Shown here: positions 18,593 to 41,980 of the stretch, in pieces
Numbering within the stretch: the stretch's first letter is position 1
Layout of the letters: every line of letters starts with the position of its first letter
Source: Syntrophobacterales bacterium
GTDB lineage: Bacteria; Desulfobacterota; Syntrophorhabdia; Syntrophorhabdales; Syntrophorhabdaceae
Length of the DNA stretch: 64,000 nucleotides
Assembly (NCBI GenBank): GCA_031274925.1
Contig: JAISPL010000014.1
Span: 1-64,000, forward strand
Reading direction: 5' to 3'
Made by a program: the position numbers and the translations under genes
Notes under the pieces: model-generated
Database searches by the model: none
Told to the model about the DNA's origin: nothing
What the model saw: the letters and a program-made list of their open reading frames with translations, nothing else

Positions 18593-19618
18593 TTATTCCT
18601 TGGTCATATTCTTCCGGTACTGGGCATAAAAATCCCGCATCGCCACGTAAGGGTCAATCGCGGCCATTTTCAACGCCTCGTAATCCCCGATATGAAACGA
18701 TGTGTAGTTGACCTTGTTATGAGTAAAGAGTATGACGCTTAAGGGATTGATGAGTTCGTCTCTTGCACTGGACGGCCAGATGACATACGTCGTGGGTGTC
18801 AATAGCCAATCTCCGGCGAAACCGGCGGAATCGCGGATGCTTGATGGTCCTATGAAAGGCCATACGATATAAATCCCGAAACCAAGGCCGTATCTTCCAA
18901 GGGTCTGTCCGAAATCAGCCTCGCGCCCGGTTATCCCGAAACATTCTTTCGCACAGTCTCTGAGGCCTGCAACGCCGACGGTAGAGTTGATAAGGAGGCG
19001 CGTAAATTCGCGTCCCGCATCACCGGGTTTGCCTTGAAGGAGATTGTTTACGATGCGAATAGGGGCTTTGATGTTCTGGTAGAAGTTGCCGACCAGCGCT
19101 CTGATGTCTTCGGGGAGAATGTAGCCATATCCTTTAGCAATTGGTTTCAGGGCCCAGAAATAGAGCTTGTCATTAAAATGATACATGGCCCTGTTCCACG
19201 GTTCAATGGGGTCGTAAATCTGTACCTCGTCGCCGGTCTCCTGGCCCTCGGCGACATTTCCATACTCGTCAAGCGTTTTACCTTTGAGCTCTTCTTCGTC
19301 GACATCACCGTACTCGTCGGAAGATTTACATACACCCCCTTCTTTCATGGCGCAGGGTTTCTCCGATACATTCTGCTCTTGCACGTTACCATACCCATCG
19401 TACGGCTTTACGTTACCTGGTTGAGAATCGGGTTTTCCCTCTCCGGCGTTCCTTGCTGCCTGCGGCAAATCAGCGATACCGGGAACCTGTGCTGAAGGAT
19501 CTTCTGCCCCATGAACATGGCAGGACCATGAACATATGACGACCATGACAATGAAGCACGCTGCTGCCAGGTGATGATGTACTTTTTTCCGTAAAGCCGC
19601 CTGGTCAATGCGTTTCAT
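18593..19618 (-). CDS. mlaA: MlaA (VacJ) family outer-membrane lipid transport protein
   Basis: 341 aa. The MlaA domain covers about residues 135-330 with DPIEPWNRAMYHFND, NFYQNIKAPIRIVNN and FGQTLGRYGLG. It forms the outer-membrane part of the Mla system that moves phospholipids between membranes. A hydrophobic leader (residues 18-33) ends in cysteines, but the lipobox is non-standard. Between leader and domain lies a low-complexity linker of some 95 residues with three copies of a D-x-YGN/DV unit (DGYGNV, DEYGDV, DEYGNV), not part of the family. Its ATG overlaps the mlaC stop. It is the last gene of mlaEFDCA. Confidence 0.9.
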   Translation of the reverse strand: MKRIDQAALRKKVHHHLAAACFIVMVVICSWSCHVHGAEDPSAQVPGIADLPQAARNAGEGKPDSQPGNVKPYDGYGNVQEQNVSEKPCAMKEGGVCKSSDEYGDVDEEELKGKTLDEYGNVAEGQETGDEVQIYDPIEPWNRAMYHFNDKLYFWALKPIAKGYGYILPEDIRALVGNFYQNIKAPIRIVNNLLQGKPGDAGREFTRLLINSTVGVAGLRDCAKECFGITGREADFGQTLGRYGLGFGIYIVWPFIGPSSIRDSAGFAGDWLLTPTTYVIWPSSARDELINPLSVILFTHNKVNYTSFHIGDYEALKMAAIDPYVAMRDFYAQYRKNMTKE

Positions 19619-20208
19619 TTCTTGTCGGTTTTTTTGCGCAAGGAATCAAGCAGTGCCTCCGGAGGGTTATTTCCAAGAATATCCCTGAACTGGGTACGAT
19701 AGTTGTTGATAAGGCTTACACCCTCAATAACCACATCGTACACCTTCCATTCGCCACCTTTATTGATAACCCTATAATAGATGGACACATTCCCCTTATT
19801 TCCAGTTACCACGCTCTGAACCTCCGCCATGTTGTCGGAAATGGGGATTTCCTTTGTGAAATCGACTTGCTCATTTGTATATGCCGTAATTTTATCGACA
19901 TATGCGTCCTTGAGGATTGTTCTGTACAGGCTTACAAATTCCTTTCGTTGTTCCTGAGAGAATTTGTTCCAGTTTATCCCCAGCGTTCTTTTTGAGAGCT
20001 CAACGAAGTCAAAAAGCTTGTCCGCAGCGGCCCAGATTCGCTGCCCTTTTACTTTCTTACCTGACTCTCCCTTGAGCTTGGGGTCCGTGAGAATATCTAG
20101 CACGCTATTCACATTTGTCTTCACCGTATCAAGGGGAGCGGCCGAGAATGCGAAGGAACAAGAGATCAATGAAATTATCAATGTTGATGCGATCAGCCAT
20201 TTTTTCAT
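19615..20208 (-). CDS. mlaC: MlaC family periplasmic phospholipid-binding protein
   Basis: 197 aa with a signal peptide (MKKWLIASTLIISLISCSFAF). The mature part matches the MlaC/Ttg2D fold: WNKFSQEQRKEFVSLYRTIL and the YYRVINKGGEWKVYDVVIEG block that ends in SLINNYR. It shuttles lipids between the MlaFEDB complex and MlaA. The start at 20208 is chosen because AGAGG lies 6 bp upstream; an ATG six bases earlier abuts the ribosome-binding site. Confidence 0.9.
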   Translation of the reverse strand: MKKWLIASTLIISLISCSFAFSAAPLDTVKTNVNSVLDILTDPKLKGESGKKVKGQRIWAAADKLFDFVELSKRTLGINWNKFSQEQRKEFVSLYRTILKDAYVDKITAYTNEQVDFTKEIPISDNMAEVQSVVTGNKGNVSIYYRVINKGGEWKVYDVVIEGVSLINNYRTQFRDILGNNPPEALLDSLRKKTDKK

Positions 20209-20227
20209 AGACATCCTCTTTTTATTT

Positions 20228-20719
20228 TTATTGGTTATCCTGTTGTGTGGGTTTTTTGGGAGCAGGTTCATTTTTGACTTCCCCGAAGGCCACTTTACCA
20301 ATCAGATCTTCAATATCAGCCGGTACGGAGGTTTGAGTGATCAATCCCCCGGTCTTCAGAATTTCTCCGGCTCCGCCTGGATCTATTTTCACATACCTGT
20401 CGCCGATAAGACCTTGGGACTTTACCGTCGCGGATGCATCGTCGTATATCTCCATACCTTTTTTCACATTCATTTTGACAAGCGCCATCTGCCGCTCCGC
20501 ATCTATGGTCAATCCAGTGATGTGTCCCACCTCAATACCGTAAACATCCACGGAGCTGCCTACCCTGAGTCCGGAGACCGAGGTAAACCTAGCATAAAGC
20601 GGGTAGGTGTCTTCGCCGAAGAGGTTAACTTTACCCAGTTTCATCGCCATGTAGCCTACGCAGATGATCCCGAACACAATAAAAATACCTACTATCGTTT
20701 CCATGGAATACTTCTTCAT
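20228..20719 (-). CDS. mlaD: MlaD family MCE-domain protein
   Basis: 163 aa. One N-terminal membrane segment (residues 8-26) and a single MCE domain: LYARFTSVSGLRVGSSVDVYG through GDRYVKIDPGG. MlaD forms the hexameric lipid channel above the MlaE permease. Its start overlaps the mlaF stop by 4 bp, and it ends 20 bp before the mlaC start. Confidence 0.92.
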   Translation of the reverse strand: MKKYSMETIVGIFIVFGIICVGYMAMKLGKVNLFGEDTYPLYARFTSVSGLRVGSSVDVYGIEVGHITGLTIDAERQMALVKMNVKKGMEIYDDASATVKSQGLIGDRYVKIDPGGAGEILKTGGLITQTSVPADIEDLIGKVAFGEVKNEPAPKKPTQQDNQ

Positions 20720-21978
20720 TGTACGTTACCTCCAGATTCGCATAGGTACGTTGCGACCGCTTCCTGCGTCTTTTTGGCTTTCTCGATGATCAGTTCAATC
20801 TCGTCTAACGGAGAGACTTCAGTGAACCCGGCAAATATGTAAATATTAACGCATGCTCCAGGGCCCAAATTTGCCAGAGCAATACCCTCAATACGGGCAA
20901 ACACCTTCTCGTGCAAGGCCTCCGCAAAACCCGCAACAAGTCGCCGCGCCTCGTCGAGGCTTGTGTGCGGGAATATGGTCAGAATCTCGTCCCTCTTGTG
21001 CCTGGCGGAAAATCCTCCTATGGAGGTGAAGTGCCTGTTGGCATATTCACCCAGTGCTTTCAATATCTCGACAGCCGCTTGTGGTCCCATAGCCTCATGA
21101 AGCACATTTAGCCGGATGGAAAAGAGGGCGGCTGAGACCGTCGGCGGTTTCGCGATGTTTCCCAGCATGGCCGAATAATGCACCCGGAACGCCTCCCTCG
21201 AAAGCAGACCTGTAAGCTCGTCCTGGAAGCCCTCAAGGCTCCGAAGGAACTCATCAATGAGAGGAATCTTCCGCTTGGTCGCTTGTTCGTAGGTACCTTC
21301 GAAACCGATTGATCCTTCCCAGAGAATAACGAGCCGGTCGGAGACAAAGAAGATATCGGGAATATCGTGGCTTATCATCACAACGGTGAAACCGAATTTT
21401 CTCCTGGCGTGAGCTATCATGCTCAGGATCATGTTCTTCCTGATAGGGTCCTGGCCGGTAGTCGGCTCATCAAAAAGAACTATCTTGGGGTCTGTCACAA
21501 GGGCGCGGGCGAGGGCTACCCGTTTCTGCATTCCCCCTGAGAGCTCGGAAGGATATTTGTAAATGGCCTCGGTAAGCTCCAGTTCCTCAATTCTCTTCAA
21601 CACCTTTTTTTCTATCTCTTGTTTATGAAGATTAGTTATCTGCCGGAGAGGCAGGGCCACATTTTCAAAAACCGACATGGAGTCAAGGAGCGCATTGTTT
21701 TGGAAGAGATAGGCGATATTGCTTCTATATTCTTCCCATTCTTTCCTTTTCATCTTGTTGATCGGTTTTCCCTGAAAAAGAATCTCGCCTTTCTCCGGCT
21801 TCAGGAGTCCTATAATATGTTTAAGGAGTACGCTCTTTCCGGTGCCGCTCTTTCCGATGATCGTCGTGATCTGGTTTTCGTATATCTTGAGATTCACATC
21901 ATTGAGGATGGTTTTTTGGCCGAATCGCTTCGTGACGTTCCGAAACTCTACAAGAGGTGTCTCCATGCTCATTCTCAC
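20716..21978 (-). CDS. MlaF-type ABC ATPase fused to a degenerate GGDEF domain
   Basis: 420 aa, about 170 longer than ordinary MlaF. Residues 1-245 are a complete ATPase: Walker A GKSGTGKS (42-49), signature LSGGMQ (146-151), Walker B IVLFDE (166-171). Residues 252-410 follow the GGDEF fold: DELTGLLSREAF at 253, then ARHKRDEILTIFPHTSLDEA where a diguanylate cyclase would read RxGGDEF, and VNIYIFAGFTEVSP near 378 in place of the SIGVA strand. The GG pair is replaced by KR, so cyclase activity is unlikely; a regulatory or GTP/c-di-GMP-binding role is inference. The GTG start overlaps the mlaE stop; ATG at 21972 or 21966 is an alternative. Confidence 0.88.
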   Translation of the reverse strand: MRMSMETPLVEFRNVTKRFGQKTILNDVNLKIYENQITTIIGKSGTGKSVLLKHIIGLLKPEKGEILFQGKPINKMKRKEWEEYRSNIAYLFQNNALLDSMSVFENVALPLRQITNLHKQEIEKKVLKRIEELELTEAIYKYPSELSGGMQKRVALARALVTDPKIVLFDEPTTGQDPIRKNMILSMIAHARRKFGFTVVMISHDIPDIFFVSDRLVILWEGSIGFEGTYEQATKRKIPLIDEFLRSLEGFQDELTGLLSREAFRVHYSAMLGNIAKPPTVSAALFSIRLNVLHEAMGPQAAVEILKALGEYANRHFTSIGGFSARHKRDEILTIFPHTSLDEARRLVAGFAEALHEKVFARIEGIALANLGPGACVNIYIFAGFTEVSPLDEIELIIEKAKKTQEAVATYLCESGGNVQ

Positions 21979-22793
21979 ATAAGAAATGAAGTTATTACAT
22001 AATCGGAAATAAGGATTATGACACAGGAAAGGACGACGGCCGAGATGGTCGCGAGCCCCACCGCTTTTGCTCCATAACCGTCAGGCCGCATGTGGCAGAA
22101 GTAACCCTGAAAACAGCAGATGCAGGATACTATAGCCGCGAAGACCAATGCTTTTATGAATCCGCCCCGGACATCTACCATGGCTACGGATGATTGAACG
22201 CGATACCAGTACGTGCCTCCGTTGGTACCGAGCATGAGCGCGCCGGTGATGTAACCTCCCAAGATTCCGATCAGATCGAAAAACGCGGTGAGAAAAGGAA
22301 AGCTAATGATTGAGGCGGCGACCCTGGGGCTTATAAGATATCTGATCGGATCAATCCTCATGGTGTACAGTGCGTCTATCTGGTCGGAGATGCGGAGAAT
22401 CCCTATTTCGGCAGTCATGGCTGAGCCTGCTCTCGCGGTGATCATGATTGCGGTCAGGACCGGCCCCAGTTCTCTGATTAGCGCCAGGGATATGGCGGAC
22501 CCGAGCGCTCCCACGGAACCGAACTTTACTAGAGTGTAAAAAAGTTGCAGTCCCAGCACCATGCCGGTGAAAAGGCCTACAAGAAGGACTATGAGGGACG
22601 ATCTGGCTCCAATGTGGAACACCTGGTTTACAATCTCAAAAAGTTGTCTTCTCCTGAAGATATTAATGAAGGCCATAAAAAAGAATACGGCCATAGCGCC
22701 AAGGCTCCCTATCAGGCGTAACGCCTCTTTGCCTATGGACGGAAAAAAAAGTGCGAGAGGATTACTTCGAGACGTCGATTCAATCTCTTTCAC
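21975..22793 (-). CDS. mlaE: MlaE family ABC permease
   Basis: 272 aa with five or six membrane helices. Family motifs are LIRELGPVLTAIMITARAGSAMTAEIG and the coupling stretch DQIDALYTMRIDPIRYL. It is the membrane core that MlaF drives. GTG 22793 is preceded by AAGGAG at 5 bp. It is the first gene of the leftward mlaEFDCA operon. No STAS (MlaB) gene or domain is present here, unlike the second system at 38-42 kb. Confidence 0.93.
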   Translation of the reverse strand: MKEIESTSRSNPLALFFPSIGKEALRLIGSLGAMAVFFFMAFINIFRRRQLFEIVNQVFHIGARSSLIVLLVGLFTGMVLGLQLFYTLVKFGSVGALGSAISLALIRELGPVLTAIMITARAGSAMTAEIGILRISDQIDALYTMRIDPIRYLISPRVAASIISFPFLTAFFDLIGILGGYITGALMLGTNGGTYWYRVQSSVAMVDVRGGFIKALVFAAIVSCICCFQGYFCHMRPDGYGAKAVGLATISAVVLSCVIILISDYVITSFLM

Positions 22794-26314: not shown

Positions 26315-26420
26315 TCCAGAAATAAGGAGATCATCATGATGAAAAACAGAAGAAACATGTGTTTGGGAATCATACTCTTATCAACAATGCTCATGCTCAC
26401 CATAACGCCATTTATGGTGA
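26315..26420 (+). repeat. 106-bp direct repeat, copy 1 (RBS plus signal peptide)
   Basis: Nearly identical to 27427-27532, with only about three base differences. It covers the AAGGAG ribosome-binding site, the double ATG and the signal-peptide coding sequence of two successive RCC1 genes, evidence for a recent duplication or gene conversion. Confidence 0.85.
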
Positions 26421-27349
26421 GTGCGGATATGAGGGTGGTGGAGCTTGCGCAGAATATGGCGACGCAAATTACGCTTAACTATGCCTCTGTCACGGCTGAC
26501 CTCCAGCAGGTGAAGGGTGCAGGCGGTATGGGTTCTTTATCCAACGCCAAGGCCATTGCCGCAGGAGGTGGTCATTCCCTCGCTCTTAAAGAGGACGGAA
26601 CTGTATGGGCGTGGGGATGGAATGATAGGGGTCAGCTTGGCGACGGGACTACTACTAATCGCTCCACCCCCGTGCAGATACAGGGTTTATCCGATGTTAA
26701 GGCCATTGTTGCGGGATACAATCATTCCCTCGCACTCAAAGACAACGGCACGGTATGGGCGTGGGGAAGGAATGATAGCGGTCAGCTTGGCGACAGGACT
26801 ACTACTAATCGCTCCACCCCCGTGCAGGTGAAGGGTGCAGGTGGTATGGATTTTTTATCCAACGCCAAGGCCATTGCTGCGGGACAAGTTTATTCCCTTG
26901 TGCTTAGAAATGACGGTATGGTGTGGGCGTGGGGATGGAATGATAGGGGTCAGCTTGGCGACGGGACTACTACTAATCGCTCCACCCCCGTGCAGGTGAA
27001 GGCCAAAGTTGTTGGAACGTTTATGGATCTAGCCGGTATTACAGCCATTGCTGGGGGAGACGCTCACTCTCTGGCCTTAGGAACCGGCTGGAAGGTATTT
27101 GCGTGGGGATATAATGCTTCCCCTTCCCACTGTAGCTCGAAGCGGATAATCGGTGGAAACACAGATCCCCTCACCTCCGCCGTGCAGGTGAAGGGTGCAC
27201 TTGGTATGGATTTTTTATCCAACGCCAAGGCCATTGCCGCGGGAAACGGTCACTCTCTCGTCCTTAAAAATGACGGTACAGTGTGGGCGTGGGGATGGAA
27301 TGGAGAGGGTCAGTTAGGCAATAACACTAATGACTCGTGTATCTACTAA
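26336..27349 (+). CDS. Secreted RCC1-repeat protein
   Basis: 337 aa. Signal peptide at residues 1-31 ([16 protein letters not shown] then a hydrophobic run ending VSA). The rest is RCC1 repeats, about 50 residues each, of the form [45 protein letters not shown]; five are visible, where a full propeller has seven. The last repeat stops after [13 protein letters not shown], so the 3' end looks truncated. Bacterial secreted RCC1 proteins are often surface or extracellular binding proteins; the ligand here is unknown. AAGGAG precedes ATG 26336. A terminator follows at 27357. Expression may depend on the invertible segment upstream. Confidence 0.85.
26603..26995 (+). repeat. Three 75-bp near-identical repeats inside the RCC1 gene
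   Basis: Units at 26603-26677, 26753-26827 and 26921-26995 encode [25 protein letters not shown]. Copies 1 and 3 differ by one base, copy 2 by a few. Such identity at DNA level suggests recent unit duplication or conversion and makes the gene prone to repeat-number change. Confidence 0.85.
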
Positions 27350-38275: not shown

Positions 38276-38941
38276 TCATTTACTCAGACGATGTATGGAT
38301 GCGTAGATATCCCGCATGATCTCATCCGATAGTCTCTTCATTGAAGCCGACATACCTTGCGTAAGAGAAACCGGTGTCTGCTCTTTAATGGGTTCCTCGT
38401 GGCGGTACTTTTTTTGGAAGATGAGCCTCTTGGTGATCTCTGTCTGCGTGGTGTCAATTAGTGCTACATTGAGACAGAGCACGGCCCTCCCTTCTCTCTG
38501 TTCATCAACCTCGAGAAACTCCTCCACCCCACCTTCAAGGACAAATCTTGTGCTTTCCGACTCACGATAGGAAAAGACCCCGGCGAACATGCCCGAGTTT
38601 CTAAGGTCGCGTACGAAATGGTCGGTAACCATATCTCCCGGCATGACCCTCCAGCGATGGTAATCGTAGGAAGCAAGCTTGTAGGGCTCTGGTCTGTATG
38701 TCATGGACTGGTTGTTGTACGCCTGTGCTGCGGAAAACCGCTCAATCCTTATGGTGTACGGGAGCGGTGTACCGTTGTTGTATACTGCTGGCGGTGCGTA
38801 CTCAATGGCATACTGCTCTGTGAGCTGCGGAGGCTTGTTTCCAGGGAGGCAGCCGAAGAGGCAGAGGATACCCAGAAAAAGAATTTGTGCCAGCACTGGG
38901 GCCACACGGCGGTTTGCTTTTGTCATATGATAGTTCCTCAT
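38276..38941 (-). CDS. ABC-transport auxiliary lipoprotein (PqiC-like)
   Basis: 221 aa. A lipoprotein signal ends FLGILCLFGC; the body matches the ABC_trans_aux/PqiC type with RIERFSAAQAYNNQSMTYR, RWRVMPGDMVTDHFVRDL and FVLEGGVEEFLEVD. Such lipoproteins work at the outer membrane with MCE transporters. The ATG at 38941 overlaps the MCE gene stop by 4 bp; an ATG at 38926 with GAGG 9 bp before it is an alternative. It is the last gene of the second Mla-type operon and takes the place of MlaA/MlaC. Confidence 0.82.
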   Translation of the reverse strand: MRNYHMTKANRRVAPVLAQILFLGILCLFGCLPGNKPPQLTEQYAIEYAPPAVYNNGTPLPYTIRIERFSAAQAYNNQSMTYRPEPYKLASYDYHRWRVMPGDMVTDHFVRDLRNSGMFAGVFSYRESESTRFVLEGGVEEFLEVDEQREGRAVLCLNVALIDTTQTEITKRLIFQKKYRHEEPIKEQTPVSLTQGMSASMKRLSDEIMRDIYASIHRLSK

Positions 38942-39870
38942 CGTGGTCTCCCAGATGAATTTGGCGGTGAGCTGAAGATAAGCTCTGAGGGGTTCGCTTT
39001 TAGCCTTTCCAGGAGACTGTCAAGGGTCTCAGAAGAGTTGCGAAGATTTTCCATGGTAATCTGTGCTTCCGTTGCGACTGCGTGTGTCTTTTTCGTAATA
39101 TTATCAAGGAACAGGTTGGTTCTTTTGGTTGTTTCAATCAAATCAATGGAATCAAGCTGCGTCTTGACGTTCCCTACGACCGCCCTTGCGTCTCTTACCG
39201 TCTCTCTTGCTTCAGAGATAACATCCTCCACCGCGCCGTCCTGTATTGCTTTGTTGATCTTGGAGGCCGAGCCGGCTAGATTGGTTGTAACTGTTTCGAG
39301 GTTGAGGATGATCCTTTTTGCGGAGGCTCCCCCGATAACTGTCTCCAGCGATTTGGTAGTGTTTACCAATTGGCTCGAAATGGCTTCAAAGTCAACTTTC
39401 TTGATCTTACCGACAATTTCATTTATGCCGGACGAAATCTGTTGTATATCGGACGGATGGGAGGGTATTACCGGGTATTGGGTCGGAAATGTGATCCTTG
39501 GTGCCATGGTGACCTCCTCAACCCGTCTCTGGTCCAGGTCGACAAAAACTATGCCTGTGATGCCAGCCATTTGAAGTTTGGCCACAGTATCCCGCATTAC
39601 GTCACCTTTGAAGTCGATTTTCATAACCACCTCAATAAGCCTGTAATCAGGCGCTACCGCAATCCTTTCAACTCTTCCCACGTCGACCCCGCGGTACTTG
39701 ACAATTGAATCGACCTGTAATCCCTGAACCGATTCGTCGAAATAAGTGACGAAGGAAGCACCTTTCTTGAAGTACTTGGCTGTACTTACCCATACAATCG
39801 CCGCAGACCCCAGAAGGATTCCGATGATCACGAAAAGGCCGACGGTAAAATATGTCTGTCTTTTAAGCAT
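38938..39870 (-). CDS. MCE-domain (MlaD-like) protein
   Basis: 310 aa. An N-terminal membrane helix (TVGLFVIIGILLGSAAIVWV) is followed by one MCE domain (FVTYFDESVQGLQVDSIVKYRGVDVG) and a long alpha-helical C-terminal part (residues 150-300) with heptads, as in PqiB/YebT or Mce proteins that bridge the periplasm. So it may carry lipids through a needle-like helix bundle, without a soluble MlaC. Confidence 0.88.
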   Translation of the reverse strand: MLKRQTYFTVGLFVIIGILLGSAAIVWVSTAKYFKKGASFVTYFDESVQGLQVDSIVKYRGVDVGRVERIAVAPDYRLIEVVMKIDFKGDVMRDTVAKLQMAGITGIVFVDLDQRRVEEVTMAPRITFPTQYPVIPSHPSDIQQISSGINEIVGKIKKVDFEAISSQLVNTTKSLETVIGGASAKRIILNLETVTTNLAGSASKINKAIQDGAVEDVISEARETVRDARAVVGNVKTQLDSIDLIETTKRTNLFLDNITKKTHAVATEAQITMENLRNSSETLDSLLERLKANPSELIFSSPPNSSGRPR

Positions 39871-39895
39871 GGTATAACCTTTCGCCTCCGTTACA

Positions 39896-40663
39896 TTACG
39901 CCGACTGTCGGTTAAAGAAATTTTTTACCATAGGATCGGTTGACTTCTCCTTGAGTTCCAATGGATTACCCACGGCGATAACACCTTTTTTACTCTTATC
40001 GAGCATGACGATCCTCTGGGCCACGGCGAAGATTGATTGCAACTCATGGGTGACGATCACCATTGTCGTTCCCATACCCCGATTCAGACTTTTTATGAGG
40101 TTATCAATTCCTGCCGCAGTAATCGGATCCAAACCTGCCGAAGGCTCATCAAAAAAGAGAATACGAGGGTCCATCGCCATGGCTCTTGCAATACCGGCCC
40201 TCTTCTGCATACCTCCAGAGAGTTCGGCCGGGAAGTGGTTTTCATATCCCGCCAAACCGACCATGCCTAGTTTCATCTTTGTGATAAGCTCTATCGTCTC
40301 AGCCGAAAGGTCAGTAAAGGTTGCAAGAGAAAGAGAGATGTTTTCGGCTATTGTCATTGAGCCGAAAAGGGCGCTTGATTGAAAGAGCATGCCGATTTCC
40401 TTCCGCAAGTCTTTTAACTTATCATAGGTCGCTGTAGTAATGTCAATACCGTTAATCACGACCCTGCCTCCGGAAGGTTTTGACAAGCCTATTATGTGTT
40501 TCAGCAGGGTCGATTTGCCGCACCCGCTACCGCCTGCAATGATAAGAATCTCCCCTCTGTGTACCTGGAGGCTTACATTATCGAGAATAGTATTCTCTCC
40601 GTAGCGAACCGTGAGCCCTTCTACCGATATGACGATGTCGCTATCACTGTTCATAGTATGCAT
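39896..40663 (-). CDS. MlaF-type ABC ATPase
   Basis: 255 aa. Walker A GGSGCGKSTLL, signature ELSGGMQKRAGIARAMA, Walker B ILFFDEPSAGLD. This is the ordinary-length relative of the fused ATPase at 20.7-22.0 kb and lacks the extra domain. ATG 40663 or 40654 are possible starts; neither has a strong ribosome-binding site. Confidence 0.9.
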   Translation of the reverse strand: MHTMNSDSDIVISVEGLTVRYGENTILDNVSLQVHRGEILIIAGGSGCGKSTLLKHIIGLSKPSGGRVVINGIDITTATYDKLKDLRKEIGMLFQSSALFGSMTIAENISLSLATFTDLSAETIELITKMKLGMVGLAGYENHFPAELSGGMQKRAGIARAMAMDPRILFFDEPSAGLDPITAAGIDNLIKSLNRGMGTTMVIVTHELQSIFAVAQRIVMLDKSKKGVIAVGNPLELKEKSTDPMVKNFFNRQSA

Positions 40664-40685
40664 ATATCATTTTCACTTTAGCGCC

Positions 40686-41840
40686 TCATCGTATGTAATT
40701 GAGTATTATGGCAAACATTGAGTCTGTCACAATGATCAGAAACAGGGACGAAACAACGGCGGAGGTGGTCGCATTTCCGACGGCCTCTGCACTGCCCCTT
40801 ACCTCAAAACCCCTCTGGCAGCCGATGCCAGCAATCAATATGGCGAACACGATGGACTTTACCGTTCCAGCCACTATGTCGAAGCTATCGAATGATTTTG
40901 CCGTCTGATGCAGGTAAGTATAAGGGGTGATCTCCAATCCCAGGACTCCCACGAGCAGGCCGCCGAATATTGCGAAAAGGTCGGAGAAGAGAGTGAGGAT
41001 CGGAACAACGATCATGGCAGCAAAGACCTTTGGTATGGCGAGGAATCTCACGGGATCAAACCCCATGATCACCAGTGCGTCGACCTCCTCGTTTACTTTC
41101 ATTGTGCCGATCTCGGCGGCAAACGCAGAACCAGATCTTCCCGCTACAAGGATTGAAGTTATAATGGGGCCCAACTCCCTGACCATGGCAAGGCCGACGA
41201 GGGATGCGACGTATATGTTTGCACCGAACTGTTTGAGTTGAAGGGAGGACATGAAGGCCATGATAAGGCCCAGGAGAAAACTAATGAGACCTAAAATGGG
41301 AAGACAGTCAACGCCGGCTTTCTTCATATAGTTCAGTACGGCCCCCCACCTGACAGTGGACGGTCTCAAGAGAGAAGTAAATATCTCGGAGATGAGCGTC
41401 CCGAAAAATGTGATGGACCTCGCAATATCTCCGAGAATGTCAAGGCTTCTCTCTCCTACCTGTTCCAGCAGAAGCATGCGTTTCTCAGGAAGATTGAGAG
41501 GAGGGGCGGTAAGCGCTTGCCTGTTGACAAGTTTCAGAATATTCCGCGCCTTCTCGGACATCTGCTCTATGGAAAAAGGAATCGCCTTTTGCGCCGCATC
41601 ATCCTCAATTCTTAAGAGGAGAAGGGCTCCGGCGCTGTCCATGTATTCAATCCCCGCAAGGTCTACAATAACCCTGGTCGGCAGGAATTCATCAAAGACA
41701 GACAGAATCTGGGGCATCATTGTATCAATGCTTTCCAAGGTCATGGAACCCGATATGCTGAGTGTTATGGGACCTCGCTTATCTCCTTTGATGGAAAGAT
41801 TATGGTTTCGTGCCATGCCTTGCATACCGGATTTGGACAA
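40686..41840 (-). CDS. STAS domain-MlaE permease fusion
   Basis: 384 aa. Residues 10-105 are a STAS domain with the phospho-site-like DSAG in GIEYMDSAGALLLL (as in MlaB); residues 130-384 are an MlaE permease with MVRELGPIITSILVAGRSGSAFAAEIG. The fusion supplies the MlaB function within the permease. TTG 41840 lies 9 bp after AAGGGG; ATG codons at 41825 and 41816 would keep the STAS core. It is the first gene of the second lipid-transport operon. Confidence 0.9.
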   Translation of the reverse strand: MSKSGMQGMARNHNLSIKGDKRGPITLSISGSMTLESIDTMMPQILSVFDEFLPTRVIVDLAGIEYMDSAGALLLLRIEDDAAQKAIPFSIEQMSEKARNILKLVNRQALTAPPLNLPEKRMLLLEQVGERSLDILGDIARSITFFGTLISEIFTSLLRPSTVRWGAVLNYMKKAGVDCLPILGLISFLLGLIMAFMSSLQLKQFGANIYVASLVGLAMVRELGPIITSILVAGRSGSAFAAEIGTMKVNEEVDALVIMGFDPVRFLAIPKVFAAMIVVPILTLFSDLFAIFGGLLVGVLGLEITPYTYLHQTAKSFDSFDIVAGTVKSIVFAILIAGIGCQRGFEVRGSAEAVGNATTSAVVSSLFLIIVTDSMFAIILNYIR

Positions 41841-41980
41841 ACGTGTTAGCCCCTTGACAGGGATCTGCTAATCGCCCTCTATAGGACCCTTTATATATAG
41901 GATATATCATAACAGGGTCCATGGAAAAAGTAACGAAAAAATACACTCCCGTAACACGCCGGAGAAGCATGAAGGTGGAA

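Follow-up and report, generated by a model that had tools for sequence, protein, structure and literature searches.

In the Mla operon of a bacterium of the family Syntrophorhabdaceae, the ATPase MlaF carries a degenerate GGDEF domain, which begins exactly where MlaF of E. coli has its C-terminal handshake tail. The residues needed for classical GGDEF activity have been lost from the domain, and it could well act as a dimerisation or assembly module in place of the tail, which is the explanation tentatively preferred in this study. No report of a fusion of MlaF or Ttg2A with GGDEF was found in the literature searched, which left out most subscription journals, and MlaF with a pseudo-enzyme GGDEF tail is apparently a widespread, unreported variant. 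We know of no signal for the control of Mla in E. coli. The fusion would represent a natural swap of single origin, in which a fold known for dimerisation sits at the very position at which a leucine zipper is an effective artificial substitute in E. coli, and the dimerisation model of Mla control thereby becomes open to direct testing. The GGDEF fold would moreover be used here outside cyclic-dinucleotide signalling.

The fused gene and its operon

The coordinates of the features are given in Table 1, where the window refers to the whole stretch of 64,000 nucleotides that was analysed. The fused mlaF overlaps mlaE and mlaD by four bases each, and mlaC and then mlaA lie beyond, so that the genes form a tight mlaE-F-D-C-A operon. 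Upstream of the operon are a UPF0047 protein, an enoyl-CoA hydratase-like ORF (recognised by eye) and a protein of the thiamine-binding family, and no STAS gene was seen among these three ORFs. The Walker A (GKSGTGKS), signature (LSGGMQ), Walker B (LFDEP) and H-loop (SHD) motifs of the MlaF part are all intact, and the Pfam profile ABC_tran matched residues 25-174 of the 420-aa protein (E 4.8e-38). Mla-like systems typically have this Met in the signature, LSGGM (PMC7367683). The intact ABC motifs, this Mla-type signature and the presence of mlaE, mlaD and mlaC in the operon identify the protein as MlaF. With MlaEFD accompanied by MlaC and MlaA, the transporter would be a true Mla phospholipid system, its transport activity being predicted.

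Table 1. Positions of the fused mlaF, its operon and the second MCE transporter in the window
Feature	Position	Strand	Remarks
mlaF fused to degenerate GGDEF domain	20716..21978	minus	420 aa, GTG start
ABC ATPase (MlaF) part, residues 1-247	21238..21978	minus	ABC motifs intact
Degenerate GGDEF domain, about residues 250-411	20746..21231	minus	Pfam, family matches, AlphaFold, PDB matches
Former GGDEF motif, residues 328-332 (KRDEI)	20983..20997	minus	Alignment with canonical domains
Ser287, place of first metal-binding Asp	21118..21120	minus	Alignment with canonical domains
mlaE permease without STAS domain	21975..22793	minus	
mlaD	20228..20719	minus	
mlaC	19615..20301	minus	Start codon uncertain
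mlaA lipoprotein gene	18593..19618	minus	
Second MlaE permease, N-terminal STAS domain	40689..41867	minus	Open frame
Second MlaF, plain, short tail	39899..40666	minus	Open frame
MlaD-like protein of second system	38941..39924	minus	Open frame

The GGDEF fold and the loss of its active site

Taken singly, the window sequence is a marginal GGDEF match. Residues 252-356 were matched in Pfam with an E value of 4.2e-4 for the full protein and 8.5e-5 for the domain alone, and the score of 22.8 bits is just below the Pfam cut-off of 23.8. The profile (PF00990) was matched at E <= 0.01 by all 47 family members, the best at 1.2e-17, and GGDEF was also matched by all 28 close relatives of a narrower set. 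When the family profile was compared with the PDB, GGDEF structures were matched with E values down to 3e-15. The AlphaFold model of the domain, made from the 47-row alignment, reached a pLDDT of 84.5 and a pTM of 0.82; its best 50 matches in the PDB were GGDEF or diguanylate-cyclase entries, with Z up to 15.6 (3ign; rmsd 3.6 over 153 residues, VIA-align). The full-length AlphaFold model was too poor (pLDDT 64.9) for the relative placement of the ATPase and the GGDEF domain to be read from it. The tail is a GGDEF domain, and this assignment is confirmed as not due to chance. The initial annotation, which had described an ATPase with a degenerate GGDEF domain and proposed a profile search and a structure prediction for the tail, is thus borne out in the ORF, the ABC_tran match and the GGDEF assignment, and the fold motifs it quoted are found in the sequence.

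The best single-sequence PDB match of the window domain was 3pjw, i.e., LapD, a degenerate GGDEF-EAL protein. LapD, CdgI and CsrD have in common with the window protein a GGDEF fold with a lost active site; however, the window protein is without EAL domain and membrane sensor, and its domain is placed on an ABC ATPase.

The active-site positions were compared in an alignment of the domain and 47 relatives with canonical GGDEF domains, the roles of whose residues we take to be those of PleD-type cyclases. The first metal-binding Asp is replaced by Ser287, with Asp in none of the 47 relatives, and the second Asp by Arg289. Of the guanine contacts, Asn is replaced by His294 (Asn in 4 of 47) and the Asp of the GxxGD motif by Val303. 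In the former GGDEF motif, Lys328-Arg329 stand in place of GG, as had been noticed initially, and the third and fourth residues, Asp330-Glu331, are kept; the latter two are frequently retained among the relatives as well. The RxxD inhibitory site (I-site) ahead of the GGDEF loop reads TSIGG, and Arg or Asp occurs there in few of the 47 relatives. The protein has neither the GG(D/E)EF signature and first-strand metal Asp of an active diguanylate cyclase nor the RxxD of an I-site c-di-GMP receptor. Judged from these residues, the domain probably does not function in the way of a classical GGDEF domain, and classical binding of GTP or c-di-GMP is unlikely because the GG, first metal Asp, guanine-contact and I-site positions are lost. 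At the former active-site hairpin a new motif, GGFSAR-x-(S/K)-R-D-E-I-L-T, is conserved in close relatives, and R326 of this loop is present in all 47.

The genome of the window, which is 97% complete, was scanned for GGDEF-family and PilZ proteins. Besides the fused MlaF, two GGDEF-family proteins scored above the cut-off, one of them with GGDDF and the other degenerate; there was also a single weak partial match, and PilZ proteins were not found. The GGDDF protein, with an N-terminal region that looks receiver-like by eye, and the degenerate one (RKGGGDF), with GAF-like regions ahead (also by eye), are on L171 and L172 (contigs 40 and 30 of the same genome). The other genomes bearing the fusion have 3 to 19 GGDEF matches, and many of them probably possess c-di-GMP chemistry; no link between this chemistry and the GGDEF domain of MlaF was found in the present data.

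A folded C-terminal domain after the ATPase is also found in MetN, MalK, ModC and OpuCA, where it is ferredoxin-like, TOBE or CBS and not GGDEF as in the window protein. CBS domains are known as C-terminal domains of ABC ATPases, and the ligand-binding C-terminal domains of MetN, ModC and the c-di-AMP-binding OpuCA gate the ATPase. By analogy, a nucleotide or other small molecule bound at the reshaped site might gate MlaF. The conservation of the reshaped loop, the frequent retention of D330 and E331, and the GTP or c-di-GMP chemistry at hand in many of the fusion-bearing genomes are consistent with such a sensor. However, it is distinctly unlikely in view of the loss of the first metal Asp in all 47 relatives, the loss of the guanine contacts and the RxxD site, and the scarcity of c-di-GMP proteins, with no PilZ, in the window's genome. 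The initial annotation had supposed that phospholipid trafficking at the outer membrane could be tied to a nucleotide signal. This idea is weak since classical GTP or c-di-GMP binding is unlikely; with Ser287, His294, Val303 and KR at the key positions, RxxD absent and little c-di-GMP machinery in the genome, it finds no support here. Its general premise, that degenerate GGDEF domains often act as GTP or c-di-GMP receptors or as protein-binding modules, is retained in the second part, protein binding being now favoured, and not in the first, for which the classical residues are lost.

Distribution, origin and selection of the fusion

When the tail was used as a query, 29 of 60 relatives were matched, two of them only via weak matches in other large proteins. 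Across the phylum 42 of 395 genomes were matched (one via an ordinary GGDEF protein), and 5 of 198 in the phylum of a record named as Nitrospirota. The fusion is present in roughly one in ten of the genomes sampled in the phylum, in many families, and in a few Nitrospirota. The close relatives that carry a name are assigned to Syntrophorhabdus, Syntrophaceae and Syntrophobacterales, or are other metagenome genomes of delta-proteobacteria. Nearly all of the fused-gene loci fetched are mlaE-F-D-C operons, mostly with mlaA, the exceptions being loci truncated at contig ends or loci with the fused gene alone.

A tree of 94 MlaF ATPase domains, with the tail left out, was built by a quick method and rooted arbitrarily. 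The 50 fused ATPases fell on one side of a single branch (support 100), and the fused clade was nested, with support 99, in a group with five tail-less MlaF from MlaC-containing operons. This topology indicates that the fusion was gained once. In one genome (G174), the first Mla operon is adjoined by a gene (L094:477-1829, minus) for another MlaF-type ATPase, which is divergent and likewise ends in a degenerate GGDEF domain (C-terminal match with E about 1e-6); this second ATPase is placed at the base of the fused clade.

Over 122 pairs of relatives, the median dN/dS was 0.17 for the GGDEF domain and 0.08 for the ATPase part, which points to an old domain under purifying selection. The loss of all catalytic hallmarks could also be expected if the domain were a neutral relic, left over from an old fusion and without function today. 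However, the domain has stayed in frame in many families of the phylum and in some Nitrospirota and has invariant positions, and the relic reading, disfavoured by purifying selection, is highly improbable.

Position of the domain and its possible role

Residues 7-246 of E. coli MlaF align with residues 8-247 of the window protein, and the homology then ends. The E. coli protein goes on with a C-terminal extension (residues 247-269), by which the two MlaF subunits clasp each other in a reciprocal handshake and are kept as a dimer. Function is lost when the extension is deleted, and growth largely recovers when a GCN4 zipper is fused at this position (PMC7367683). The STAS protein MlaB, needed in E. 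coli Mla together with the MlaF tail (PMC7367683, PMC5016091), is required for MlaF to remain with MlaE (PMC5016091). Compared with the MlaFEDB systems of E. coli, P. aeruginosa and A. baumannii (6xbd, 7ch8, 7d06), the ATPase part can be aligned from end to end, with E values of 5e-49 for E. coli MlaF and 5e-55 for the best entry, and the operon partners E, D and C are common to both. In contrast, the window MlaF has the GGDEF domain instead of an E. coli-type extension, and its operon contains mlaA and no STAS/MlaB gene that could be found.

Since the domain is exactly at the place of the handshake tail, a dimerising fold is the simplest reading. The C-terminal domains of ABC ATPases, among them ferredoxin-like and TOBE domains, usually pair below the NBDs (PMC7367683). 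In the mechanism tentatively proposed, the handshake tail was swapped for a catalytically dead GGDEF domain, and the final ATPase helix would continue directly into the helix that opens this domain. The two GGDEF domains of an MlaF pair would come into contact beneath the ATPases and keep these paired on MlaE, stabilising the MlaE-MlaF complex as the C-terminal extension and MlaB do in E. coli, and altered pairing might possibly tune the ATPase activity. Most isolated GGDEF domains of E. coli gave no homodimer in a two-hybrid test, some degenerate ones homodimerise strongly, and some form specific heteromeric contacts (PMC5635695); with these mixed results both dimerisation and docking are viable.

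In the case of docking, the conserved face at the former active-site loop (GGFSARxxRDEILT) would bind a cytoplasmic partner, possibly an envelope regulator or a further protein with a GGDEF or EAL domain, and thereby raise or lower transport. This is in line with the strong conservation of the loop, with R326 in 47 of 47, and with the heteromeric contacts of degenerate E. coli domains (PMC5635695). However, no additional conserved partner gene was seen in the fused-gene operons, and docking is considered rather unlikely. A new switch, in which a ligand or partner at the reshaped loop alters MlaF pairing and sets the inter-membrane phospholipid flow in many members of the phylum, would be an unlikely outcome.

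In favour of the dimerising tail we count the end of homology at the tail, the zipper rescue, the strong homodimers of some degenerate E. coli GGDEF domains (PMC5635695), the failure to find a STAS gene in the flanks searched, the operons, the single origin, the dN/dS values and the residue losses, which together make it plausible, if tentatively so. On the other hand, MCE ATPases without tail and STAS, the mostly non-homodimerising E. coli GGDEF domains and the conserved loop, which could point to a ligand or partner, count against it. Such a module is not obligatory, since GGDEF tail and STAS are both missing from many MCE ATPases of the phylum, including some whose operons contain MlaC.

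The search for STAS genes used a profile made from 25 long (STAS-type) permeases, which picks up a stand-alone STAS protein elsewhere; with it, no hit to a STAS (MlaB-like) gene was obtained in the flanks fetched around the fused genes, where a very divergent MlaB could escape. The two MlaE permeases of the genome are both within the window, and STAS_2 is matched just once in the genome, by the N-terminal domain of the second permease. This MlaE belongs to a second MCE transporter (window 38279-41867), composed of STAS-MlaE, a plain MlaF, a long MlaD and an ABC_trans_aux lipoprotein, with no MlaC or MlaA seen in its operon. As initially noted, its MlaF is without the domain, having a short tail and no GGDEF match. 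Both are MCE transporters with a cytoplasmic non-catalytic accessory domain; however, in the second system the STAS domain is on the permease, MlaC and MlaA are absent, and the ATPase falls in a separate clade. The STAS and GGDEF domains belong to two different transporter types, a suggestive but single evolutionary contrast. Among the matches listed for 150 MlaE places in 80 genomes, the GGDEF tail was present at 41, with STAS listed near none of these, while 28 had STAS without GGDEF tail and 64 were short permeases with neither; the tails were listed at a strict threshold, and one further tail turned up among the set with neither. With these 64 and one origin per type in the tree, replacement of STAS by GGDEF was rejected as a statistic, being a single contrast and not a correlation.

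Some other arrangements were observed. In two Mla operons without GGDEF tail (G068, L153:3389-3856; G051, L155:3281-3775; both minus), a protein with a cyclic-nucleotide-binding domain is encoded just downstream of mlaC and is a candidate cytoplasmic regulator of Mla. In a Mla-like operon of G067, a gene for an outer membrane efflux protein (OEP, TolC-type; L151:5063-6460, minus) lies between mlaD and mlaC. In the window itself, an ORF at 26336-27349 (plus) contains repeat units and would, judged by eye, encode an RCC1-type repeat protein preceded by a signal peptide.
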